Shown one piece after another: positions 1-13,357 of a DNA stretch of 64,000 bases. A model generated the notes under the pieces. The model was not told the DNA's origin and did no database searches. It was given only the letters and a program-made list of their open reading frames with translations. The DNA is taken from NCBI RefSeq assembly GCF_000012845.1, contig NC_009615.1, positions 581,501-645,500 of the forward strand, given 5' to 3'. Source of the DNA: Parabacteroides distasonis ATCC 8503 (GTDB lineage: Bacteria; Bacteroidota; Bacteroidia; Bacteroidales; Tannerellaceae). The position numbers and the translations under genes are program-made. Each line of letters opens with the position of its first letter. Positions within the stretch are counted from its first letter, which is position 1.

Positions 1-1157
1 ACTTGGATTTGGTTATCAAAAGCTCTGAATCGGCTCAAGAATGGAATTATTGGGTAATGGGTAAGACTATGACTGCCTTTATGTATCATATCCTAGTGGA
101 CTCTTATGGCTCTATTCCTTTTACAGAAGCTATTCTTGGGAATGAGAATACTACACCGAAATATGATGACAGTAAGACTGTGGTTTATCCGGGATTATTA
201 GCGATGTTGGACGAGATTATCGCTAAAAAAGCGGAAGCTACCGCAGGTGGTTTGCCTTCGGTTACAAAACAAGACTTGGTGTTCGCTGGTGACGTGAATA
301 AGTGGATTCAATTTGCGAAGAGTTTAAAGCTAAAATTGTTGATGCGTGATTTCGATACGAATAAAGCTGCTATCAAGGCATTGCTCGACGAAGGAGATTT
401 GCTGAGTGTAGACGCTAAGATGGACTGTTTTCAAGATTTGGAAAATAAATCAAATCCATTGTATGAGAATGACCGTCGTAAATTGAATTCAACTGTAAAT
501 ATTCGTGCGTGCGCTACGGTTTGCGATTATTTGAAAAAATATGAGGATCCTCGTTTAAATGATTTTTATTCACCTAATACGGATGGCTCCGGCGAGACAA
601 CAGCTTTGAAGTATGGTGACCGCCCAAACTCGGTAGCGGTAACAACTCGTATGATCTCTGTGGCTAAGCTAGGTCCTACAGATCCTGTTTATTTTATGTC
701 TGCTGCTGAGGTAGCGTTCCTGCAAGCGGAAGCTTACGCTCGTTTGAATGATGTGGCTAAAGCGAAAGTGGCTTATGAGCAAGGTGTGAATTATGCGTTT
801 GAACGTTGGGGGTATTCTGCTGCCGAGTTTATTTCTGAAGGTGCTCCTTATGCATTCGATAGTACGGACCAAAATTCAATGCTTACCTCTATTTTGACCC
901 AGAAGTGGATCGCTTCCACTCGTTGTCAAGCATGGGACGCATGGTTTGATATCAATCGTACCGGTATTCCTGTTTTAGGGACAAAGCATGTGGATGAGGA
1001 AGGATATATTTGGGGGCAGTTGACTCCTTGCATTGGTTCTGCGTTGGCTCCGGGTGAATATCCTCGTCGTTTATTGTATCCGAAGTCATCTTCAGACTAT
1101 AACCCTAATACTCCGGCGGTAGTTCCGTTAGCGGAAAAACAATGGTGGCATAAATAA
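1..1157 (+). CDS. SusD/RagB-like outer-membrane lipoprotein, 5' end outside window
   Basis: This is the C-terminal 384 residues of a SusD-like nutrient-binding lipoprotein. The reading frame is open to the left edge, so the signal peptide and lipobox are missing. The alpha-helical TPR-like core is visible: a helix with VMGKTMTAFMYHILVDSYGSIPFTEAI, the conserved VYFMSAAEVAFLQAEAYARL segment, and a C-terminal EKQWWHK that matches the PVWWAGGTR ends of the two other SusD proteins in the window. SusD proteins sit on the cell surface and cap a SusC TonB-dependent pore. The partner susC should lie just upstream, off the window. A small lipoprotein gene follows within about 45 bp and is probably in the same operon. 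Substrate cannot be told from sequence. Confidence 0.88.
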   Translation, partial: LDLVIKSSESAQEWNYWVMGKTMTAFMYHILVDSYGSIPFTEAILGNENTTPKYDDSKTVVYPGLLAMLDEIIAKKAEATAGGLPSVTKQDLVFAGDVNKWIQFAKSLKLKLLMRDFDTNKAAIKALLDEGDLLSVDAKMDCFQDLENKSNPLYENDRRKLNSTVNIRACATVCDYLKKYEDPRLNDFYSPNTDGSGETTALKYGDRPNSVAVTTRMISVAKLGPTDPVYFMSAAEVAFLQAEAYARLNDVAKAKVAYEQGVNYAFERWGYSAAEFISEGAPYAFDSTDQNSMLTSILTQKWIASTRCQAWDAWFDINRTGIPVLGTKHVDEEGYIWGQLTPCIGSALAPGEYPRRLLYPKSSSDYNPNTPAVVPLAEKQWWHK

Positions 1158-1889: not shown

Positions 1890-3068
1890 ATGGAAAAAGT
1901 AATTTACAACTTAGTGTTTAATCGAAAAAAGCAATTGAATGCGGAAGGAAAAGCTTTGATTCAAGTAGAGGCCTATTTGAATAGGCAAAAGAGGTATTTT
2001 TCAACGAAGGTTTATGTGAAACCTTGTCAATGGGACAACAAGAGACGTTCCATAAAGAATCATCCGAATATGGATGCGTTAAACCTGTATCTTCAGAACT
2101 ATGTTATGGAGTTGGAGAGAGATGAGCTGGAGAAGAGACAAGCGAATAACGGTTTTTCGTTGAAGGATCTGCGTGAGGAGGCTTCTTCGACATCTACGTC
2201 TTCCTCTTTTCTTGTTTTCATGCGTGAGGAGATTTTACATAGTAATTTGAAAGAATCGACATTAAAAAACCATTTGTCCACTTTGCATGTTCTATCCTTA
2301 TATAAAAAGGACGTTCTGTTTAAGGATATTAATTTCAATTTCTTATGCGATTTTGAATATTTCTTATTGAAGCAGGAGTATCATCGAAATACGATCGCTA
2401 AACATATGAAGCATTTGAAACGATATATCAACTTGGCGATTAATAAGGAGTTGTTCGAGTTGCACAAATATCCATTTCGGAAATATAAGATTAAATATCA
2501 AGAGAGTAAGCGTACTCATTTAACGCCTGAGGAGTTAGGTCGTTTGGAAAACTTAAAGCTGGATGGGCAGCGTACATTGCGCCGGTGTCTGGATATGTTT
2601 TTATTTAGTTGCTACACGGGATTACGTTTCTCAGACATAGTAAGTATAACGAAAGAGAACTTTTTGATTATTGATGATAAGGTTTGGCTGGTTTATTCAT
2701 CGGTGAAGACAGATGTGAGTGTCCGTTTGCCGCTATTCCTCTTGTTCGAGGGTAAATCTTTACCTATCTATGAGCGATATAAGAATGCGCCGAGAACCCT
2801 GTTTGGTGTTCCCTTATCCTCTAATTCAAACGTGAATAAGCAATTACGCCGAATCAGCCAATTGGCAAGTATTGATAAGAAGGTATCTTTTCATACGGCT
2901 CGGCATACAAATGCTACCTTATTATTATATAATGGAGCGAATATAACTACGGTACAAAAGTTGTTAGGGCATAAAAGTGTTCGTACTACCGAAATCTATA
3001 GCAATATCATGGATATGACGATTGTCCGCGATCTTGAGAAGATTGAGACACGATTGAAGTTCGGCTAG
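1890..3068 (+). CDS. Tyrosine recombinase, candidate DNA invertase for the adjacent SusCD switch
   Basis: A 392-residue tyrosine site-specific recombinase of the Bacteroidetes type: N-terminal arm-binding beta domain (about 1-75), SAM-like core-binding domain (about 105-200) and catalytic domain (about 210-390). All catalytic residues are visible: Arg246 (TGLRFSD), Lys273, His335 and Arg338 (HTAR), His361 (LGHKS) and nucleophile Tyr370 (TEIYSN). I choose the ATG at 1890 because MEKVIYNLVFNRK is a typical start; the ORF extends 14 codons upstream from an alternative codon at 1848. It is a single gene with no mobilisation, relaxase or phage neighbours. It sits convergent to and 90 bp from susD of the left switch arm. 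In Bacteroides fragilis, lone tyrosine recombinases next to SusC/SusD loci catalyse local promoter or gene inversions, so acting on the 7945/8510 inverted repeats is the best guess. That partnership is inferred. Confidence 0.9.
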   Translation: MEKVIYNLVFNRKKQLNAEGKALIQVEAYLNRQKRYFSTKVYVKPCQWDNKRRSIKNHPNMDALNLYLQNYVMELERDELEKRQANNGFSLKDLREEASSTSTSSSFLVFMREEILHSNLKESTLKNHLSTLHVLSLYKKDVLFKDINFNFLCDFEYFLLKQEYHRNTIAKHMKHLKRYINLAINKELFELHKYPFRKYKIKYQESKRTHLTPEELGRLENLKLDGQRTLRRCLDMFLFSCYTGLRFSDIVSITKENFLIIDDKVWLVYSSVKTDVSVRLPLFLLFEGKSLPIYERYKNAPRTLFGVPLSSNSNVNKQLRRISQLASIDKKVSFHTARHTNATLLLYNGANITTVQKLLGHKSVRTTEIYSNIMDMTIVRDLEKIETRLKFG

Positions 3069-3158: not shown

Positions 3159-4688
3159 TTAGCGAGTTCCGCCAGCCCACCATACGTTTTCGGTAAACAC
3201 ATACTGACCATCACCATAAGCAGCTTGTATATTAGGATTAGTCGTAGTATCATCATTACCATACGGACATCTTAACGGGAACTTACCCGGATTTTGCAAG
3301 CCATAAATATCCTCACCCAAGCTCTTCAAACGACGTACGTCATTATAGCACTCGGTAGACTCTCCATCTGCGTTCCAGAAAGAAATATATTTCTGAATCA
3401 TCGTCTCTTTCAAAGGATTAGCATCGAATAAGGGAACGACATTCTCATCAAAGTAAGAAGCGGCCTCCTCCGGTGTCACCTCGTTTGTTACATTCAAGAA
3501 ACCTCCCCAATAATCAGAAGCGAGGGCAGACTTGATATTAACCTCCATATTAGCCATACCTGCGACAACAGCCTCTTTCAACACTGCTTTTGCCTCATCC
3601 TTACGATTTAAACGACACAAAGCCTCTGCCTTCAAGAACAATACCTCATGATAACTTAAGATGTGAGTCGGAGCGGTTTGAGCTGCACAGAACATGGAAA
3701 CAGTATATTCTAACTGACTTTGCACTAAATCACCATTATGAGCAAGATTCAATAATGGATCATCCTTAGAAGCAATCATCGTTTGGCTGTTAGCCTCCAC
3801 ATAGCAACGTCTGATACGCGGATCATTACGCTCATTCAATTTATCAAACATACTTCGGCTGGCTACTTCACCTAAACGAGAATAGAATACTCCGAAAAAT
3901 GGGTTGATATTAACACCCACACCATACATAGCATAGCTACATTGCTCGGCTGCCGAGGTGTACGACTTGGAAATATAATCCAACACCTTTTCCATATCGC
4001 CCTTAACATCAGCGCTACGTCCCATCAAGCGCATCGTATAACGAGCCTTCAAGCCATAAGCTGTCTTTAGCCAAGCCGAAGCGTCACCTTTATAAATCAA
4101 ATCTTGATTAGACAGGCTCGTCAGATCTGGTTTCTGAAGATCTTCAATTGCGGCATCCACATAGGCCATGATATCCTTATAAATCTCCTCTTGTTTATCG
4201 ATAGCGGGAGTCATAGATACTGTATAGTCACAAGCCTCTTTCCAAGGTGTATCACCATACATATCTGTCAAGATCGCCAAATTGTAAGCCACGAAAAGTT
4301 CCGCAATGCCTTTTGTTATGAAGTTCTGCTCTTCTTCTGCGACTTTGACAGAGATCAAAGCATCTTTCAGTGTCGAATAGGTTCCCCCCCATGAGTTATT
4401 AAAGGTAGAAGCCGATGTACAAGAAGAACGGGTTTCCGCATAGTAGAATTGATTATGCGAACCTGTCTCATGTTCCACATACATACCACCATATAAATTG
4501 AAATCGCCGCTAACCACGCTAAACGCAGTCGAAGTCATGACATCCGTAAGGATCATCTTTGCGGGAACTGCTGTGGTATGATTATGATCTTTGTTGATCT
4601 CATCCATCTTATCCTCAGAGCAAGAGACCAAGGCTGCGGTGAAAACAACTCCCGTCAATAATTTTTTTGAGATATTTTGAAGTTTCAT
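3159..4688 (-). CDS. SusD/RagB-like nutrient-binding lipoprotein (left switch arm)
   Basis: A 509-residue SusD-like lipoprotein of the SusD_2 (PF12771) kind. The N-terminus MKLQNISKKLLTGVVFTAALVSC carries a signal peptide with lipobox Cys; SEDKMDEINKD follows. Conserved helices include a segment around HEVLFLKAEALCRLNRKDEAK and the end ENVWWAGGTR. It lies 15 bp downstream of its susC on the same strand, so the pair is one transcript. Its paralogue at 11789-13357 shares the whole layout (MTSTAFSVVSGDFN versus ITSTAFSNVSGDFN; WWAGGTR end). The protein should cap the SusC pore at the cell surface. Expression depends on the invertible promoter segment; no good promoter faces this pair in the present orientation. 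Confidence 0.92.
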   Translation of the reverse strand: MKLQNISKKLLTGVVFTAALVSCSEDKMDEINKDHNHTTAVPAKMILTDVMTSTAFSVVSGDFNLYGGMYVEHETGSHNQFYYAETRSSCTSASTFNNSWGGTYSTLKDALISVKVAEEEQNFITKGIAELFVAYNLAILTDMYGDTPWKEACDYTVSMTPAIDKQEEIYKDIMAYVDAAIEDLQKPDLTSLSNQDLIYKGDASAWLKTAYGLKARYTMRLMGRSADVKGDMEKVLDYISKSYTSAAEQCSYAMYGVGVNINPFFGVFYSRLGEVASRSMFDKLNERNDPRIRRCYVEANSQTMIASKDDPLLNLAHNGDLVQSQLEYTVSMFCAAQTAPTHILSYHEVLFLKAEALCRLNRKDEAKAVLKEAVVAGMANMEVNIKSALASDYWGGFLNVTNEVTPEEAASYFDENVVPLFDANPLKETMIQKYISFWNADGESTECYNDVRRLKSLGEDIYGLQNPGKFPLRCPYGNDDTTTNPNIQAAYGDGQYVFTENVWWAGGTR

Positions 4689-4703: not shown

Positions 4704-7700
4704 TTAGAATTTCACATTTAAACCGAAGCCATAGCTCGAAGCACCCGGCATAGAAAAGCGCTCGAAGCCACCGCCCATATTATTATTACCTTGAGAAGCC
4801 TCAGGATCCAAACCTTTCAACTCAGACCAAAGAATGATATTTCTGGCAAAAACATTTAAGTTCACGTTGATTCCATTCTTATCCCATATCGGATAACTAA
4901 CGGACAACTCACGTAGTTTCAAGAAACCACTGTCATAGATACCAGCTTCGGAAATAAGCGTCATGCGGTCATAATATGATAAAGCGTCTTCGCCTTTGAT
5001 ATCTATGTCATTAGCTACATAGGAACCATCTTCCAACTGCTTTACAGCCGGATGACTAAAACGGAAAGTCTCGGCCGTACGACTTTCAACAGACTCCATA
5101 CTTGTACCATAATAGTTCAACGTGTTCAATGTACCGCTATACATCTGTCCACCACATTTCCAATCGAACGTAGCGCCGATACGGAATTTGTAGATCTCAA
5201 AATTAGTATTGAAACCCAAGAGGAAATCCGGGGAAACCTTACCGATCACACCCTCACTACCGATCTGAGGCAAGCCATCTTCGTCTACGACAATGTCACC
5301 GTTGTCATTACGCAAGAAAGTCGTACCATAGATTACAGGGAATTTATCGCCAATATTCGCACGTACCTGCGGATCAACGAAACCTCCCAAGAAAATACTC
5401 TCTACACCCGGAGCCAGCTCATCCACGTAGTTATCGATCTTAGAGAAGTTAAATGCCATATCCCATTTAAAATTCTTCGTATTGATCGGATTGATTCCCA
5501 ACGTAATCTCATGAGCGTTCGTATGGATAGCGCCACCATTGGTTACTAATTCTGCAGAGCCTGTAGAACCAGCCAAAGGAACCTCAAATATCTGATCTTT
5601 CACATTCTGCCGAGAGAAGGTATAGTTCAATGAGAACAGACCATTCAAGAAGGTCAAATCCACACCTAACTCATAAGACTTCGTGTTCTGAGGTTTCAGA
5701 TTCGGATCATACACACGAGCATATGGAGTGAACGCCGTAATTCCACTCATAGGATATTGTATAGGCGTAGAACCATAAAAACCACCACCGTAAACAGGTG
5801 TAGTATAATAAGAATCATAATAATCTCCAGCCTGTCCTACTTCGGCGTAAGAAGCACGTAATTTACCATAAGTCAAGACATTATTCTTCAATGGTTCTAA
5901 TTCTGTGAAAATCCAGCCCAAGGAAACAGATGGATAAGTGAATGAGCGGTTGTTACGAGGCATATTAGATACGATATCGTTACGAACAGTTGCGTTGAAG
6001 TAAACCATGTTAGCGTAAGACAATGAAATGCTAGCAAAGTTACCAACTGTGCGTTTCCGGCGTAATGACTCGGATGCTACCATAGTTGTAGCATTATCTA
6101 TATGATTCCAACCCGGGAAGTTATAGTTCGCTCCATAAGACTCGTAAAATTTCCGCTGATTCTCTACCAATTCATTACCAACAAGGGCATCGAACAACCA
6201 ATCTTCATTGATATTCCAAGTATATGCAGCGGTCAACAAAGAGTTCAACTCCGTGATTGAATATCCATAGTGATCAATCTCTCCATAACCATTTGCATGT
6301 CCATAACCCCAAGAATCCGTATAATTAGTCGTATAAGAGTCCACACCCAATTGATACTTGACATCCAATTTGTGATTATCGGTATTGAACTTCGTAGAAT
6401 ATTTCAAATAAGTATTTCCAAAGAAACGTTGTGAACGTTCCAAGAACTCGTTGTTATCTACCGCCCAATAAGCTCCGTCAAAACCTGATGTGCTACGGAA
6501 TGTATTTTGTGTATACGGGTCACCCTCAACATGACTTGGGATACCGGCTAAATCGTAGCTAGAAGGAGCTCCGTAAACAGTAGCTAAGATTCCATTATTG
6601 GCACTAGACTGCTTGCTGATCTTCGAATTTACATAGGTACCGGTAAATCCAGTAGACCAGTTCTTGTGTAATTGAGCTTCGGCACTCATTTTTGCGTTGT
6701 ATCGGTCCATGCCTGTATTTGGAATAATACCATCTTGCGTAGTATTACCGATCGAGAAGGAATAGTTACCTTTATCAAAAGCTTGAGCTACATTCACGGA
6801 GTTACTCCATGTCGTACCCACGTTGAAGAAATCCTTGATATTGTCGTAAGCTTGTGGTTGAGCCCAAGGGTCTAATCCCGCAGCGGCCCGCTGAGGTACA
6901 TAATACATACCTTCATGCTTACCATATTGCTTGGTAAACTCATTATCCGTATTTCCTCCATAAGTCGGATCGTTAGGCAATTCGCTGATTAGTGGTCCCC
7001 AAGAAGTTGAAGCATACGGGCTATACTTGCCATTTGTACCCTGCGCATACACTTTTTGGTATTCAGGCATCGTTGAAACCTTATCAAAAGATAAGCTGGT
7101 ATTAAAAGCGACCTGAGGTTTACCTTTACGGGCTCCCTTTCCACTTTTGGTCGTAATGACAATTACTCCATTTGTTGCACGCATACCATACAAGGCAGAT
7201 GCGGCCTGTCCCTTTAATATATTAATGCTTTCAATATCGTTTGGGTCGATATCCACCGCACGAGATGCAAAGTCCGTGCCGGAAACAGAACTACCGGTGT
7301 CCACATCAGCCGTTGAAGCGACAGGCATACCGTCAATCACATACAAAGGAGTATTATCCCCTGTAAAAGATCTGGAACCACGAATCGTGATCTTAGAAGA
7401 GGCACCCGGCATACCGGAAGAAGGAGAGATCTCCACTCCAGAAACCTTACCTTGTAATGCGCCAGACAAACTAGTATTAGCTCCTTTCGTCAACTCATCC
7501 GCTTTCACATCTTGAACCGCATAACCTAAAGCTTTCTTTTCCTTTGAGATACCCATAGCCGTAACCACGACCTCATCCAAGTTCTGGGTATCGGCTAATA
7601 GTTTTACATTTACATTAGAAGTGGCCGCAACTTCTTGAGATTTCATACCGATGTATGAAATAACCAATTGTTTACCATTCGCAGGTACTTCTAGTTCAAA

Positions 7701-7877
7701 GTTTCCATCAAAATCCGTGACTGTTCCCACGGTTGTCCCTTTTACGATAATAGAGGCACCGATCACCGGCTCTCCATCTTCCCCAATTACCTTACCGGTA
7801 ACCTTCGAGGTCTGTGCTGAAACCACACCTGCACTCAATGCAAGAAATAGTAGCACAGAAGTCAACTTTTTCTTCAT
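4704..7877 (-). CDS. SusC/RagA-family TonB-dependent outer-membrane transporter (left switch arm)
   Basis: A 1057-residue SusC-type TonB-dependent transporter. Order: signal peptide (about 1-22, ending VVSAQ), carboxypeptidase-regulatory-like domain (about 25-100, with VIGASIIVKGTTVGTVTDFDG), TonB-box/start of plug at NLDEVVVTAMG, plug domain (GALQGKVSGVEI, PLYVIDGMP, IESINILKGQAASALYGMR), then the 22-strand beta barrel ending in GLNVKF with C-terminal Phe. I take the ATG at 7877; a GTG two codons upstream (7883) is also in frame. The first 100 residues are nearly identical to the divergent SusC at 8569, while the barrels diverge, as expected for paralogues handling different ligands or phage/immune exposure. 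It is followed after 15 bp by its susD. Present orientation of the switch leaves it without a recognisable promoter. Confidence 0.95.
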   Translation of the reverse strand: MKKKLTSVLLFLALSAGVVSAQTSKVTGKVIGEDGEPVIGASIIVKGTTVGTVTDFDGNFELEVPANGKQLVISYIGMKSQEVAATSNVNVKLLADTQNLDEVVVTAMGISKEKKALGYAVQDVKADELTKGANTSLSGALQGKVSGVEISPSSGMPGASSKITIRGSRSFTGDNTPLYVIDGMPVASTADVDTGSSVSGTDFASRAVDIDPNDIESINILKGQAASALYGMRATNGVIVITTKSGKGARKGKPQVAFNTSLSFDKVSTMPEYQKVYAQGTNGKYSPYASTSWGPLISELPNDPTYGGNTDNEFTKQYGKHEGMYYVPQRAAAGLDPWAQPQAYDNIKDFFNVGTTWSNSVNVAQAFDKGNYSFSIGNTTQDGIIPNTGMDRYNAKMSAEAQLHKNWSTGFTGTYVNSKISKQSSANNGILATVYGAPSSYDLAGIPSHVEGDPYTQNTFRSTSGFDGAYWAVDNNEFLERSQRFFGNTYLKYSTKFNTDNHKLDVKYQLGVDSYTTNYTDSWGYGHANGYGEIDHYGYSITELNSLLTAAYTWNINEDWLFDALVGNELVENQRKFYESYGANYNFPGWNHIDNATTMVASESLRRKRTVGNFASISLSYANMVYFNATVRNDIVSNMPRNNRSFTYPSVSLGWIFTELEPLKNNVLTYGKLRASYAEVGQAGDYYDSYYTTPVYGGGFYGSTPIQYPMSGITAFTPYARVYDPNLKPQNTKSYELGVDLTFLNGLFSLNYTFSRQNVKDQIFEVPLAGSTGSAELVTNGGAIHTNAHEITLGINPINTKNFKWDMAFNFSKIDNYVDELAPGVESIFLGGFVDPQVRANIGDKFPVIYGTTFLRNDNGDIVVDEDGLPQIGSEGVIGKVSPDFLLGFNTNFEIYKFRIGATFDWKCGGQMYSGTLNTLNYYGTSMESVESRTAETFRFSHPAVKQLEDGSYVANDIDIKGEDALSYYDRMTLISEAGIYDSGFLKLRELSVSYPIWDKNGINVNLNVFARNIILWSELKGLDPEASQGNNNMGGGFERFSMPGASSYGFGLNVKF

Positions 7878-7944
7878 AAACACACTTATTTATTAACTAT
7901 ATACTTAAAAATGTTTTCTCTGCATTTTAATGGTTGATTAACTA

Positions 7945-7961
7945 AGTTCATACAGAACTAC
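7945..7961 (+). repeat. Left inverted repeat (recombination site) of the SusCD switch
   Basis: AGTTCATACAGAACTAC, a perfect 17-bp inverted match to 8494-8510. Internally it is a small dyad, AGTTC-ATACA-GAACT: two recombinase-binding arms around an asymmetric 5-bp spacer. This is the standard layout of a tyrosine-recombinase core site; spacer asymmetry forces inversion rather than deletion when copies face each other. Confidence 0.9.
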
Positions 7962-8417
7962 CAATTTTCAATATTTTATTTAGTGTAGTCATATGAAAAA
8001 AAATTATCATATAAGTTTAGATCTATTAAAATTCTGTAATAAATATATTGGATTTGAGAGATATTGTTTATCAGCCATATTGGGAGGATAAGAAAAGCCA
8101 GCCGTTTTTCACAAATATCTACATAAAATAAAGTTGTAAATATTTTTAGTGATAAGCTATATGCTATAAAATATCCAGAATAAGTTGATATCAAGTCCAA
8201 TATCATGCCTATAAAGAGTAAGCTCACTATTTGTTACGATAAAATTAAGATAAAAATAATTTTTTTATTTGTCAAAAAGAAACTATCGGCAGCGATAACT
8301 CATTGATTTGTGATACGATCATGTCACCTGAGTCGATTTAGACAGTGGTTATATTGCAAATTGACAGATTTAACAATTAAGAAAACAAAGGAAATATATC
8401 ACAATAATAATAATTTG

Positions 8418-8448
8418 TTGTTTTTTTCAGGTATAATTTATAGTTTTG
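8418..8448 (+). promoter_or_regulatory. Outward-facing promoter inside the invertible segment
   Basis: -7 element TAGTTTTG at 8441-8448 fits TAnnTTTG exactly. A -33 element (GTTG at 8417-8420, consensus TTTG) lies 20 bp upstream; another TTTG at 8414-8417 gives a 23-bp spacer. Predicted start near 8455, so the transcript would cross the right repeat and enter susC at 8569. No equivalent TAnnTTTG faces the left susC. Confidence 0.65.
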
Positions 8449-8493
8449 CAACCGTTTTTCATTTAATAGGTATGTCGTAAAACATAAAATGGA

Positions 8494-8510
8494 GTAGTTC
8501 TGTATGAACT
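8494..8510 (-). repeat. Right inverted repeat (recombination site) of the SusCD switch
   Basis: GTAGTTCTGTATGAACT, the exact reverse complement of 7945-7961. With flanking bases the dyad arms extend to six: TAGTTC-TGTAT-GAACTA (8495-8511). It lies in the predicted 5' leader of the right-hand susC. Confidence 0.9.
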
Positions 8511-8568
8511 ATAGTCCACGAAAGCTTAATTGAATTTCTAGTTTAGTTTAAATAAAAAGAATGTGTCT

Positions 8569-11500
8569 ATGAAGAAAAAGTTGACTTCTGTGCTACTATT
8601 TCTTGCGATGAGCGTAGGAGTAGTTTCGGCACAGACCTCGAAGGTTACCGGTAAGGTAGTCGGAGAAGATGGTGAGCCGGTGATCGGTGCGTCCATTATC
8701 GTAAAAGGAACGACTGTGGGAACAGTTACGGATTTTGACGGTAATTTTACTTTGGATGTTCCTAGTGATGGTAAGCAATTAGTTATTTCATACATCGGTA
8801 TGAAATCCAAGGAGGTAGTTGTGTCTCCCAATGTAAATGTAACATTGATGTCTGATACTCAAAACTTGGATGAGGTCGTGGTTACAGCGATGGGTATCTC
8901 AAAGGAAAAGAAAGCTTTAGGTTATGCCGTGCAAGATGTAAAATCGGATGAGTTAACACAAGGTGCTAACACTAGTTTGTCTGGGGCTTTGCAAGGTAAA
9001 GTATCCGGTATCGATATCGCTTCCTCATCGGGTATGCCAGGCGCATCTTCCAAGATCATGATCCGTGGAGCCCGTTCATTTACAGGGGATAACTCTCCTT
9101 TGTATGTGATCGATGGTATGCCGATCGCTTCTACGGCGGATGTTAATACGGATACTATGAATAATGGTAGTGTTAGTGGAGCTGACTATGCGAACCGTGC
9201 CGTAGACTTAGATCCGAACGATATCGAGAGTATCAACATCTTGAAAGGACAAGCCGCTTCTGCGTTGTATGGTATGCGTGCTTCTAATGGTGTGATCGTT
9301 ATTACTACAAAGAGCGGAAAAGGTGCTCGTAAAGGAAAACCTCAGATCTCATTCAACACGAATCTTGCGTTTGATAAGGTTTCTACATTACCTGAGTTAC
9401 AAACTGAATATGGACAAGGTAATGAAGGTGCTTATAACCCATATTCGGGATTTAGCTGGGGACCGTCTATCTCTGACTTGGCGAATGATCCTGTATATGG
9501 CGGTAATGTACAAAATGAATATACGGAAGGTGGATTGCATAATGGACAATACTATGTGCCTCAGCGTGCTGCGGCAGGATTGGATCCATGGGCTACTCCC
9601 CAAGCTTATAATAATGCGAAAGATTTCTTCCAGACTGGCGTTACTTGGAGTAACTCTGTAAATGTAGCTCAATCTTTCGATAAAGGAAACTATTCATTTT
9701 CTTTGGGTAATACGACTTCTGATGGTATCGTTCGTTCTACGGGAATGGATCGTTATAACGTGAAGCTGTCGGGTGAGGCGCAATTGCATGATAACTGGAC
9801 GACTGGTTTTAACGGAAACTTCGTGACATCAAAGATCAAGAAGCAAGGAACCGCTAATGACGGTGTTACCGCTACGGTTTATACGGCTCCTATCAGTTAT
9901 ACTATGGCGGGCATACCTTCCCATATCGAAGGTGATCCTTATACTCAGAATACGTTCCGTGAGAACTGGATCGATGATGGAAACTGGGCGTGCGACAATA
10001 ATAGCTTTACGGAGAGATCTCAACGTTTCTTCGGGAATGCGTTCTTGAAGTATTCTACTAAATTTGGTACGGACAATCATAAATTGGATGTGAAATACCA
10101 AATTGGTGATGACGCTTATACGACCAATTACTCTGATATTTACGGCTACGGTACAACTGGTTATGCGAATGGTTATGCTAGCGAATACGGTTTTACGGTA
10201 AATGAGATGAACTCATTGTTGACGTTTACGTATAACTGGAATATCAATGAGGACTTCGTATTCGATGCTTTGTTGGGTAATGAGCTTGTAGATAAGCGAA
10301 TCAGTAATACTCAAGCCGTGGGATATAGCTTCAACTTCCCGGGCTGGAACCATTTGAACAACGCTTCTGTATTCAACAGCTCTCATGAGTATAAGAGAAA
10401 ACGTACGGTAGGTAACTTCGCTAGCTTATCTTTGGCTTGGAAGAATATGCTTTATTTGAATGTTACGGGACGTAACGATATCGTGTCTTCTATGCCGAGA
10501 GATAACCGTTCGTTCTTTTATCCTTCCGTATCCCTTGGATGGGTATTCACGGAAGTGGAAGCCTTGAAGAATGATATCTTGACATTTGGTAAGATCCGTG
10601 GCTCTTACGCAGAGGTAGGTATGGCAGGAGAATATGTGCCGTCTTATTATTATACGCCAGGTTATGGTGGTGGTTTCTTCCAGGGAACACCTATTATGTA
10701 TCCGATTAATGGAAATATGGCGTATATTCCTTATTTCGTGGTTTATGATCCGAACTTGAAGCCTCAGAACACGAAGTCTTATGAGCTTGGTGCTGACTTG
10801 ACTTTCTTGAATGGTTTAGTTTCATTGAATTATACGTATTCTCGTCAGAACGTGAAAGACCAAATCTTCGAGGTGCCTTTGGCTGGCTCCACAGGTGCTT
10901 CCAGTATGATGATGAATGGTGGAAAGATGCACTCAAACGTACATGAGATTACATTAGGTATCTCTCCGGTTGATACGAAGAATTTCAAGCTGGACTTCGC
11001 TTTTAACTTCTCAAAGATCGACAATTATGTAGACGAGTTGGCTCCGGGCGTAGAGAGCATTATGTTGGGTGGTTTCGTGACTCCTCAAGTACGTGCAGGT
11101 ATCGGCGATAAATTCCCGGTAATCTATGGTGTTGGTTACAAACGTGATGGCGAAGGACGAATTGTAGTAAACGAAAAAGGTATACCAGAGGCTGGTGAGA
11201 CCCAAGTAATCGGTAAGGTTTCTCCTGATTTCCGTTTGGGTTTCAATACGAATATCGAGTTGTATAAATTCCGTTTGGCTGCTGTATTTGACTGGAAGCA
11301 AGGTGGACAAATGTATAGTGGTACGGCTGGTGAGACGAACTTCTATGGTACAAGTAAGTTATCTGGAGAGGTTCGTAAGAGTGATAAATATCATTTTGAC
11401 TATGCTGCTGTTGAACAGAAGGGCGTAGATGCGGATGGTAAACCTATCTATGTTCCCTATACGGGTGGAGTGAAAGGATCAGATGCAGAGGAGTATTTCA

Positions 11501-11766
11501 AAAGCGTGAGGGGCATTGACGAAGCCTATGTTTATGACAACTCGTTCTTGAAATTGCGTGAACTTTCATTGTCATATCCTGTATATAAGAAAGATAACTT
11601 GAATGTAAACGTGAATGTTTTCGCCCGTAATATCATTGTATGGTCTGAGATAAAAGGCTTCGATCCAGAGGCTACTCAAGGAAATAACAATATGGCTGGC
11701 GCTTTCGAGCGTTTCTCCTTACCGGGTACATCTAGCTACGGTTTTGGTGTCAACGTAAATTTCTAA
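8569..11766 (+). CDS. SusC/RagA-family TonB-dependent outer-membrane transporter (right switch arm, predicted ON)
   Basis: A 1065-residue SusC-type transporter, paralogue of the gene at 4704-7877. Signal peptide ends VVSAQ; carboxypeptidase-regulatory-like domain about 25-100; plug starts NLDEVVVTAMG and includes PLYVIDGMP and IESINILKGQAASALYGMR; the beta barrel ends GFGVNVNF with C-terminal Phe. The ATG at 8569 is homologous to the left copy's start; a GTG two codons upstream is in frame in both. The last third contains insertions relative to the left paralogue (for example around VRKSDKYHFDYAAV and EYFKSVRGIDEAY), the kind of loop change that would alter specificity. It is co-transcribed with susD 22 bp downstream and faces the promoter at 8418-8448. 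Confidence 0.95.
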   Translation: MKKKLTSVLLFLAMSVGVVSAQTSKVTGKVVGEDGEPVIGASIIVKGTTVGTVTDFDGNFTLDVPSDGKQLVISYIGMKSKEVVVSPNVNVTLMSDTQNLDEVVVTAMGISKEKKALGYAVQDVKSDELTQGANTSLSGALQGKVSGIDIASSSGMPGASSKIMIRGARSFTGDNSPLYVIDGMPIASTADVNTDTMNNGSVSGADYANRAVDLDPNDIESINILKGQAASALYGMRASNGVIVITTKSGKGARKGKPQISFNTNLAFDKVSTLPELQTEYGQGNEGAYNPYSGFSWGPSISDLANDPVYGGNVQNEYTEGGLHNGQYYVPQRAAAGLDPWATPQAYNNAKDFFQTGVTWSNSVNVAQSFDKGNYSFSLGNTTSDGIVRSTGMDRYNVKLSGEAQLHDNWTTGFNGNFVTSKIKKQGTANDGVTATVYTAPISYTMAGIPSHIEGDPYTQNTFRENWIDDGNWACDNNSFTERSQRFFGNAFLKYSTKFGTDNHKLDVKYQIGDDAYTTNYSDIYGYGTTGYANGYASEYGFTVNEMNSLLTFTYNWNINEDFVFDALLGNELVDKRISNTQAVGYSFNFPGWNHLNNASVFNSSHEYKRKRTVGNFASLSLAWKNMLYLNVTGRNDIVSSMPRDNRSFFYPSVSLGWVFTEVEALKNDILTFGKIRGSYAEVGMAGEYVPSYYYTPGYGGGFFQGTPIMYPINGNMAYIPYFVVYDPNLKPQNTKSYELGADLTFLNGLVSLNYTYSRQNVKDQIFEVPLAGSTGASSMMMNGGKMHSNVHEITLGISPVDTKNFKLDFAFNFSKIDNYVDELAPGVESIMLGGFVTPQVRAGIGDKFPVIYGVGYKRDGEGRIVVNEKGIPEAGETQVIGKVSPDFRLGFNTNIELYKFRLAAVFDWKQGGQMYSGTAGETNFYGTSKLSGEVRKSDKYHFDYAAVEQKGVDADGKPIYVPYTGGVKGSDAEEYFKSVRGIDEAYVYDNSFLKLRELSLSYPVYKKDNLNVNVNVFARNIIVWSEIKGFDPEATQGNNNMAGAFERFSLPGTSSYGFGVNVNF

Positions 11767-11788: not shown

Positions 11789-13357
11789 ATGAATACAATA
11801 ATAAAATCATTTAAAGGGTTGGCTGTTATGTCGGCCGTATCCTTGGCATTGGCTGGATGTTCCGAGGATGTAATGGATCGGATTAACCAAGATACGAGCC
11901 ATACAAATAGCGTGGATGGCAAATTTATCTTGGCCGACTTGATTACTTCTACTGCATTTTCCAACGTTAGCGGAGACTTCAATACCTATTCATCTTCCTA
12001 CGTGGAATATGAAGTGGGTATCGAAAACCAGTTATATAACGCGGAAATTCGTTTGAATGAGCCTTCTGCCTCTTCTACGTTTGAGAATACGTGGGGAAAT
12101 GTTTATACAAGCTTGAAGAACGCTCGTGTTATTATCGGTCAATGTCAAGAAGGTAAGCGTGATGAGGGAAATTTAGTGACGAGAGGTATCGCTGAGGTCA
12201 TGGAAGCTTACAATGGCGCTCTATTGGCGGATATATTTGGAGATACACCTTATAGTGAAGCTTCTTTATTGGATGAGAATGGCTCACCGGTGAATATGAA
12301 TCCTAAAATAGATAAGCAAGAGGAGATTTATGTCTCTATAATGGCCTCCTTGGACAAGGCGATCGAGGATTTGAATCAGTCTGATCGTTCACCGGTTGGT
12401 ACGTATGATTATTTGTATAATGGAGATGCCGAGAAATGGATTAAATTCGCTTATGGTTTGAAGGCTCGTTATACGATGCGTCTGATCAATCGTTCCACGG
12501 ATAAGCAAGCTGACTTGAATAAGGTTTTGGACTATGTATCAAAATCTTTTACTTCTGCGGATGACGAGGCTGCATACGCTGTCTATGATGCGAATAATAT
12601 CAACCCATTCTTTGGTTACTTCGATTCTCGCGCTGGTTTTGCCAATAGCCAGAGCTTGACGGACAAGTTGATTGAGCGTAAAGATCCTCGATTGGAAAGA
12701 GTGATGCTTTCTCCTACTACGGCTGACAAGAAACGCGTACAGGTTACAGGCTCTGCTGATAAGAACTTAGTTCCGGCCCCGAATGGTACTCCTGAGCAGA
12801 ATATGCAGAAATATGGTGTTTCCGCCTTTGTATATTCAAACACGGCTCCTACGATGTTGATGAGTTATCATGAGTTGAAATTCTTGCAAGCTGAGGCGTT
12901 ATGTCGCTTAAACCGTACGTCTGACGCCGAGAAAGCGTTGAAAGAGGCGGTAGCTGCCGGAATCGCAAATGCTGAGAGAAGTGTCTCTTCTGCTATCACT
13001 TATATGGGTAGCAAAATGGTCGTGAATTCAGAAAAAATGACAGAGGAGACGGCCAATACATATTTCGATAACCAAGTTAAACCGTTGTTTGCTGTAAATC
13101 CTTTGAAAGAGACCATGATCCAGAAATATCTGGCTTTGTGGGGGGCATCGGGAGAGGCTACCGAGACTTTTAATGATATCCGTAGAATGAAAGGATTAGG
13201 AGAGAATTTCGTGACATTGGCGAATACGAAAAAATTCCCTCTTCGTATGCCTTATGGTAATAGTGACGTGGTATCAAATCCGGAAGTAAAAGCCGCTTAT
13301 GGCGACGGTCAATACGTATATTCAGAGCCTGTATGGTGGGCTGGCGGAACTCGCTAA
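11789..13357 (+). CDS. SusD/RagB-like nutrient-binding lipoprotein (right switch arm)
   Basis: A 522-residue SusD_2-type lipoprotein. Signal peptide and lipobox are seen in AVSLALAGCSEDVMDRIN, with the lipidated Cys at residue 23. TPR-like helices follow, including MLMSYHELKFLQAEALCRLNR, and the end EPVWWAGGTR is shared with the left paralogue. It starts 22 bp after its susC and is closed by a terminator at 13384, so susC-susD form a two-gene unit. Surface-exposed lipid-anchored lid of the SusC pore by family knowledge; ligand unknown. Confidence 0.92.
   Translation: MNTIIKSFKGLAVMSAVSLALAGCSEDVMDRINQDTSHTNSVDGKFILADLITSTAFSNVSGDFNTYSSSYVEYEVGIENQLYNAEIRLNEPSASSTFENTWGNVYTSLKNARVIIGQCQEGKRDEGNLVTRGIAEVMEAYNGALLADIFGDTPYSEASLLDENGSPVNMNPKIDKQEEIYVSIMASLDKAIEDLNQSDRSPVGTYDYLYNGDAEKWIKFAYGLKARYTMRLINRSTDKQADLNKVLDYVSKSFTSADDEAAYAVYDANNINPFFGYFDSRAGFANSQSLTDKLIERKDPRLERVMLSPTTADKKRVQVTGSADKNLVPAPNGTPEQNMQKYGVSAFVYSNTAPTMLMSYHELKFLQAEALCRLNRTSDAEKALKEAVAAGIANAERSVSSAITYMGSKMVVNSEKMTEETANTYFDNQVKPLFAVNPLKETMIQKYLALWGASGEATETFNDIRRMKGLGENFVTLANTKKFPLRMPYGNSDVVSNPEVKAAYGDGQYVYSEPVWWAGGTR

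Follow-up and report, generated by a model that had tools for sequence, protein, structure and literature searches.

The 566-bp segment at positions 7945-8510 of the window, the 64,000 nucleotides from 581501 to 645500 of the single 4,811,379-bp contig of Parabacteroides distasonis ATCC 8503, is in our judgment, which we hold with high confidence, a two-sided invertible promoter. A tyrosine recombinase, in all likelihood the product of the gene at 1890-3068, would flip it so as to select mainly one of two flanking SusCD pairs. We take the invertible promoter to be real and very likely two-sided, and, judging from sequence comparison, the segment is most likely a genetic either/or switch deciding which surface transporter the cell makes. 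Invertible promoters and SusC shufflons are known kinds of element; the two-sided form for SusCD operons appears to be new.

The segment is bounded by inverted repeats of 17 nt (7945-7961 and 8494-8510) that are 100% complementary, lie 532 nt apart and span 566 bp overall. The predicted left recombination site (plus strand) reads AGTTC-ATACA-GAACT-AC (AGTTCATACAGAACTAC), and the predicted right site (minus strand) is its perfect inverse, GT-AGTTC-TGTAT-GAACT on the plus strand. Each site is a dyad whose arms, AGTTC/GAACT, are 5 bp long (6 bp at the right copy) and enclose an asymmetric 5-bp spacer, ATACA. The first-pass annotation had described just such perfect 17-bp repeats between two divergent, paralogous SusCD operons, with dyad arms of 5-6 bp around an asymmetric 5-bp spacer, and both descriptions are correct, the second being read directly from the letters. 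When the 694 bp separating the start codons were shuffled 60 times with dinucleotides preserved, no inverted repeat exceeded 15 bp and 0/60 reached 17 bp, and the 15-mer AGTTCATACAGAACT has exactly two copies in the 4.81-Mb genome, both at this segment. The motif AGTTCN5GAACT alone is not enriched genome-wide (14 sites vs 23 for a reversed control); it is the matched inverted site pairs, not the motif count, that look non-random, with three inverted pairs of identical spacer in the genome, where an even scatter of the 14 sites would give 0.0004 such pairs within 11 kb, the 11-kb limit having been chosen after the pairs were seen. Both sites lie outside coding DNA, and susC genes start 70 and 58 bp from the repeats, at both ends of the segment rather than at only one, as a one-sided on/off element would have it. 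Open reading frames inside the segment reach at most 83 aa, and a coding function is not favoured. A scan of the left junction against viral contigs gave 0 matches. The segment also contains two collinear weak direct repeats, at 8099-8137 and 8449-8498 (CAGCCGTTTTTCA / ACATAAAATAAAGTTGT), which by their sequence might represent a degenerate duplicate of the promoter end.

The evidence that this segment has turned comes from a second strain. A search of 59 genomes, the source genome included, returned matches in 12, and one of these, P. distasonis NM39_I3, the closest of the named relatives compared, holds the whole segment in the orientation opposite to its flanks. All 566 of 566 bp are identical and inverted, and the flanks are identical up to the repeats, over 372 bp on the left and 348 bp on the right, so that the breakpoints fall at the two predicted sites. 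The natural copy thus bears out the earlier proposal that inversion occurs at exactly these repeats, and since the 566 bp are 100% identical between two P. distasonis genomes, the turn is recent. Both orientations occur in nature, within the species through the inverted NM39_I3 copy and among species through opposite promoter directions. As a separate observation on that strain, its right susC, the one predicted to be OFF there, carries a one-base deletion (locus L017, about 12920), and the right susC has 22 substitutions vs 8 in the left. Given this deletion, NM39_I3 may no longer have a working choice.

On either side of the segment stand genes with Pfam Plug/barrel and SusD-like_2 matches. 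The left SusC, a TonB-dependent receptor (4704-7874, minus strand; Pfam Plug and barrel), is 71% identical to the right SusC (8569-11766, plus strand; Pfam Plug/barrel), whose open reading frame may start at a GTG at 8563; the accompanying SusD proteins (left, 3159-4688, minus strand; right, 11789-13357, plus strand; both PF12771) are 52% identical. Both susC genes are full length and free of in-gene sites. Among solved structures, 5fq6, the BT_2264 SusC-type protein, scores best as a relative of the left SusC.

The promoter, recognized by its sequence, lies at 8414-8448 on the plus strand, with TTTGTTG at 8414-8420, a 20-bp spacer and the -7 box TAGTTTTG at 8441-8448. It is the only exact TAnnTTTG on either strand of 7861-8600, and because it points right, the right pair is predicted to be ON and the left pair OFF in the window. 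As cited in a passage of PMC4747536, changing TAnnTTTG abolishes Bacteroides promoter activity. A scan with the sigma-70 consensus, which is uninformative for this phylum, found 8 promoter-like sites against a shuffle mean of 4.9 (sd 2.3) and was replaced by the TAnnTTTG scans. The same layout, TTTGTTG-N20-TA[CG]TTTTGCA, is common to P. chinchillae, P. bouchesdurhonensis and strain ZJ-118, and the promoter region together with the right-hand site is the best-conserved portion of the segment among relatives. Between the susC starts there is one exact -7 box each in the window, in NM39_I3 and in the first segment of P. bouchesdurhonensis; in P. chinchillae each strand of the segment has one, and a -33 partner accompanies only one of the two. 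A weak leftward promoter-like site on the minus strand at 8364 has one mismatch and is not conserved in the alignment of relatives. The predicted single outward promoter and the two-sided layout, both proposed in the annotation, draw support from their being kept in two other species, where the promoter faces right in one and left in the other; the weak leftward site at 8364 and the second P. chinchillae -7 box count against the reading.

How might such an element work? The tyrosine recombinase would recombine the two AGTTC-N5-GAACT sites and turn the segment round. In the orientation of the window, the promoter near the right end of the segment would drive the right SusCD pair and leave the left pair without a promoter; after inversion the same promoter would drive the left pair through a leader of nearly equal length, the distance from -7 box to ATG being about 121 nt for the right pair as it now stands vs about 132 nt for the left pair once inverted. 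Since one promoter would serve either side according to orientation, cells should mainly make one or the other paralogous transporter. Strict either/or expression, as the annotation had envisaged it, is what we infer from this arrangement.

The arrangement recurs in the genus. The recombinase was searched for in 38 Parabacteroides genomes, 26 of which, the source included, gave a match, and neighbourhoods were compared for 22 of the 25 other genomes, some of them on short contigs, with the weaker or partial matches in G011, G019 and G026 left out. Four of the 23 neighbourhoods are two-sided, namely the window, NM39_I3, P. chinchillae and P. bouchesdurhonensis, and in all four the gene order is recombinase, left pair on the minus strand, segment, right pair on the plus strand. 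Promoter direction divides them 2:2, pointing right in the window and P. chinchillae and left in NM39_I3 and P. bouchesdurhonensis. The site spacers are matched within each locus (TGTAT in P. distasonis, TGATA in P. chinchillae and P. bouchesdurhonensis), in a search that did not require the copies to match in their spacers. The genes being served are far less constant: the left SusC of P. chinchillae and of P. bouchesdurhonensis is only about 27-28% identical to that of the window, the left SusD proteins there belong to other Pfam families (PF14322, PF07980), and the right pair of P. bouchesdurhonensis joins a SusC to a PF07980/PF14322 SusD. In P. chinchillae the SusD families at the two ends of the switch are unlike, which means that such a switch can serve dissimilar transporters and not close paralogs alone. 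P. bouchesdurhonensis has three copies of the site (L061, 16001-18000), two of them in direct orientation; by its sequence, the segment seems to have been duplicated in tandem along with a short 5′ piece of susC. In Parabacteroides sp. ZJ-118 (L018, 10500-10820) there is a left pair, a promoter facing it and one site, and the right susC is reduced to a 49-bp match of 86%, which suggests that this strain lost its right pair and retains a remnant of the switch. The metagenome-assembled genome STD2_99, a close relative, has a 94% identical recombinase, but only one SusCD pair stands on this side of it, and a scan of 20 kb gave no such site.

The candidate invertase gene (1890-3068, plus strand; domains Arm-DNA-bind_5, Phage_int_SAM_5 and Phage_integrase) lies 4.9 kb from the segment, and an ortholog adjoins all four two-sided loci. 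The first-pass annotation mentions neither this gene nor the tie between its family and SusC shufflons. Residues R247, K274, H336, R339, H362 and Y371 are invariant in 14 sequences, the window's recombinase and 13 orthologs, and are presumably the catalytic residues of this enzyme. NCBIfam searches with three recombinases gave only Xer-like and integrase-like matches below cut-off. Sites of the AGTTC[TC]G type are found at 14 of 15 loci in other genomes that combine a full-length ortholog with long context (L017, L018, L034-L044, L046 and L047, with one mismatch allowed in L042), STD2_99 being the exception; the short contigs L045 and L048 and the partial-ortholog loci L049-L053 stand outside this count, and three of these partial-ortholog loci, when scanned, had no exact site. 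As background, AGTTCTGN5ACT occurs 0 times in the 48 kb of the window from 16001 on and twice in 57 kb of other loci, both times in L007, which overlaps the P. chinchillae switch. The enzyme encoded at 1890-3068 is the most likely candidate for recombining the segment.

That assignment has a rival of some weight, namely that another tyrosine recombinase of the genome inverts the segment and that the gene at 1890-3068 serves only the adjacent SusC shufflon. We regard this as unlikely, albeit deserving of attention: the genome has 36 matches to PF00589, 34 of them over the cut-off, so that the enzyme stays a candidate; in most relatives in which sites were found, the local sites are of the in-gene shufflon type; and STD2_99 keeps the gene without the site. 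Against it, the two-sided sites and most in-gene sites have AGTTCTG or AGTTCCG and similar arms in common, and NM39_I3 retains the recombinase and the inverted segment at a locus from which the adjacent shufflon's site is absent (at most one mismatch, 16.6 kb compared, with a different susC there). Inversion might instead have needed no site-specific enzyme at short repeats at all, the 5′ ends of the two susC genes being 82% identical and forming 600-nt inverted arms (7292-7891 and 8555-9154) around the segment on which homologous recombination could act. The unique DNA between these arms and the repeats (7892-7944 and 8511-8554) is not inverted in NM39_I3, so recombination between the susC genes is not the cause; with the breakpoints at the 17-bp repeats, this candidate was rejected, and we consider it extremely improbable.

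Two further readings accept the inversion and differ from a two-sided switch in what it does. In one, inversion simply turns one pair on or off and the second pair has a promoter of its own; one-sided invertible promoters are the usual kind, and the genome holds a likely one-sided case at 3.02 Mb, but no exact TAnnTTTG lies outside the repeats before either start codon (7861-8600), and the arrangement of two divergent, complete susC genes recurs in three named species, which makes this reading very unlikely. The other is a fixed rearrangement, in which the segment turned once between strains and flips no longer. The search covered one genome per species, the right susC is broken in NM39_I3 and the right pair is apparently lost in ZJ-118, all of which this reading would accommodate; set against it are the 2:2 split in orientation among the four loci, the complete identity of the 566 bp that marks a recent turn, and repeats and spacers that stay perfectly matched, and we give it little credence.

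If the two-sided promoter is the best reading of the segment, is it the only such device in the genome? Three further matched inverted-repeat pairs occur at SusC loci of ATCC 8503, each different in layout. The 20-bp inverted repeat of pair A (about 577.3 and 578.2 kb) lies inside susC coding sequence, in a locus at genome 574.5-582.7 kb directly left of the window, whose SusD end is window 1-1157; as a candidate switch, it would place either a complete or a 5′-truncated susC behind a shared promoter and signal peptide, and in P. chinchillae the best match (70%, DNA) to the body of pair A's complete gene occupies the truncated place. Pair C (1.902 and 1.913 Mb; L020, 4139-4160 and 14554-14575) is a 22-bp perfect inverted repeat around two convergent SusCD pairs. 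Exact -7 boxes pointing inward occur beyond its right end alone, one close to the site (TACATTTG) and one distant from it (TATGTTTG); the 271 bp beyond the left end contain no such box, and the arrangement is possibly a cassette swap under a fixed promoter. Pair D (3.0205 and 3.0210 Mb; L019, 4968-5476), a 19-bp inverted repeat, encloses a segment that precedes one susC only. Its two exact -7 boxes are both directed away from that gene, neither with a -33 partner by the rule used, and the element is possibly a one-sided on/off switch that is apparently OFF in this assembly. The element has 15 matches in NM39_I3, where its right flank is matched at 99% on one contig; the segment itself has there only partial matches of 69-83% on other contigs (76-83% for the best five) and one 25-bp match. 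A tentative idea, which we think less likely than not, is that several addressable SusCD switches of P. distasonis are operated by a single recombinase, which would recognize common arms close to AGTTC/GAACT, the 5-bp spacer acting as an address label that restricts exchange to matching partners. If true, four layouts would be under its control (two-sided promoter, promoter plus signal peptide, cassette under a fixed promoter, and one-sided on/off), and a single enzyme would give up to 16 combinations of surface transporters.

Relatives of the recombinase (51-75%) adjoin SusC loci with in-gene sites in 26 of 80 named loci, each with a matched inverted pair and at least one site inside susC; a further 3 are two-sided, 1 has a pair without SusC and 50 have no such pair, counts in which many of the pair-less loci are on cut contigs and some loci come from the same genome. 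In Bacteroides, relatives of the recombinase are found at SusC loci organized as shufflons, where sites such as AGTTCTGCAAAGACT fall within susC. At loci such as that of B. fragilis Q1F2, one susC, matched from residue 1 onward, is accompanied by copies homologous only from near residue 55-65, and the relatives of the recombinase there (56%) sit at a shufflon locus, a putative link to the Tsr0667 system. No in-susC site with 5′-truncated silent copies is found at the segment, and, by comparison of these loci, the two-sided switch would be a derived form in which the site came to lie before the start codon.

The either/or idea has precedents. In the sapA element of Campylobacter fetus, surface-protein genes flank both sides of an invertible segment that bears a single promoter; this element is larger, recombines through long homologous gene ends and belongs to an unrelated phylum. 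The Hin flagellar switch of Salmonella also alternates the expression of two surface proteins by inversion, through a serine recombinase and with a co-transcribed repressor, instead of a promoter common to both sides, ensuring exclusivity. Closer to the present case are the SusC/SusD shufflons of B. fragilis (Tsr0667; region EE, ragA/susC genes), in which inversion likewise chooses among SusCD pairs: passages of PMC4747536 describe shufflon-type inversions by Tsr0667 at three SusC/SusD clusters, and PMC5729914 describes inversions that overlap susC start codons and so place alternative genes at a promoter. In those shufflons large gene cassettes change place and the site is in, or at, the 5′ coding part of susC, whereas in our segment the sites are outside coding DNA, the promoter alone moves and both susC genes are complete. 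With the invertons of Bacteroidales (capsule, SusCD loci) the segment shares short inverted repeats, a TAnnTTTG-type promoter, a nearby recombinase and surface products; these invertons are described, in the portions of the literature drawn on here, as on/off, whereas operons flank the segment on both sides. TonB-receptor and SusD genes are over-represented in inverton group 131 according to the main text of PMC11892184, which contains no occurrence of distasonis, Parabacteroides, bidirectional or divergent. Passages of PMC12118408 give a different repeat, GCTACTYRGNRAGTAGC, for the P. distasonis capsule promoters. Among the titles and abstract openings surveyed, none describes a two-sided SusCD promoter. 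The inverton survey PMC10939037 included P. distasonis, and the locus may therefore already be listed as invertible.

What would such a switch mean for the bacterium? DNA inversion would here select between two intact nutrient transporters rather than turn one on or off, and every cell would keep one. Considering that SusC is abundant at the cell surface, this choice could govern the use of diet, sensitivity to phages and recognition by the immune system; we infer reversibility within a culture, exclusivity of expression and a benefit through nutrient uptake or through a change of phage receptor or antigen. More broadly, the comparison of species suggests that the same recombinase family serves as the engine of a coding-sequence shufflon or of a promoter toggle, depending on which side of the start codon its site lies, and the locus offers a sequenced, tractable case of inversion choosing between transporters.
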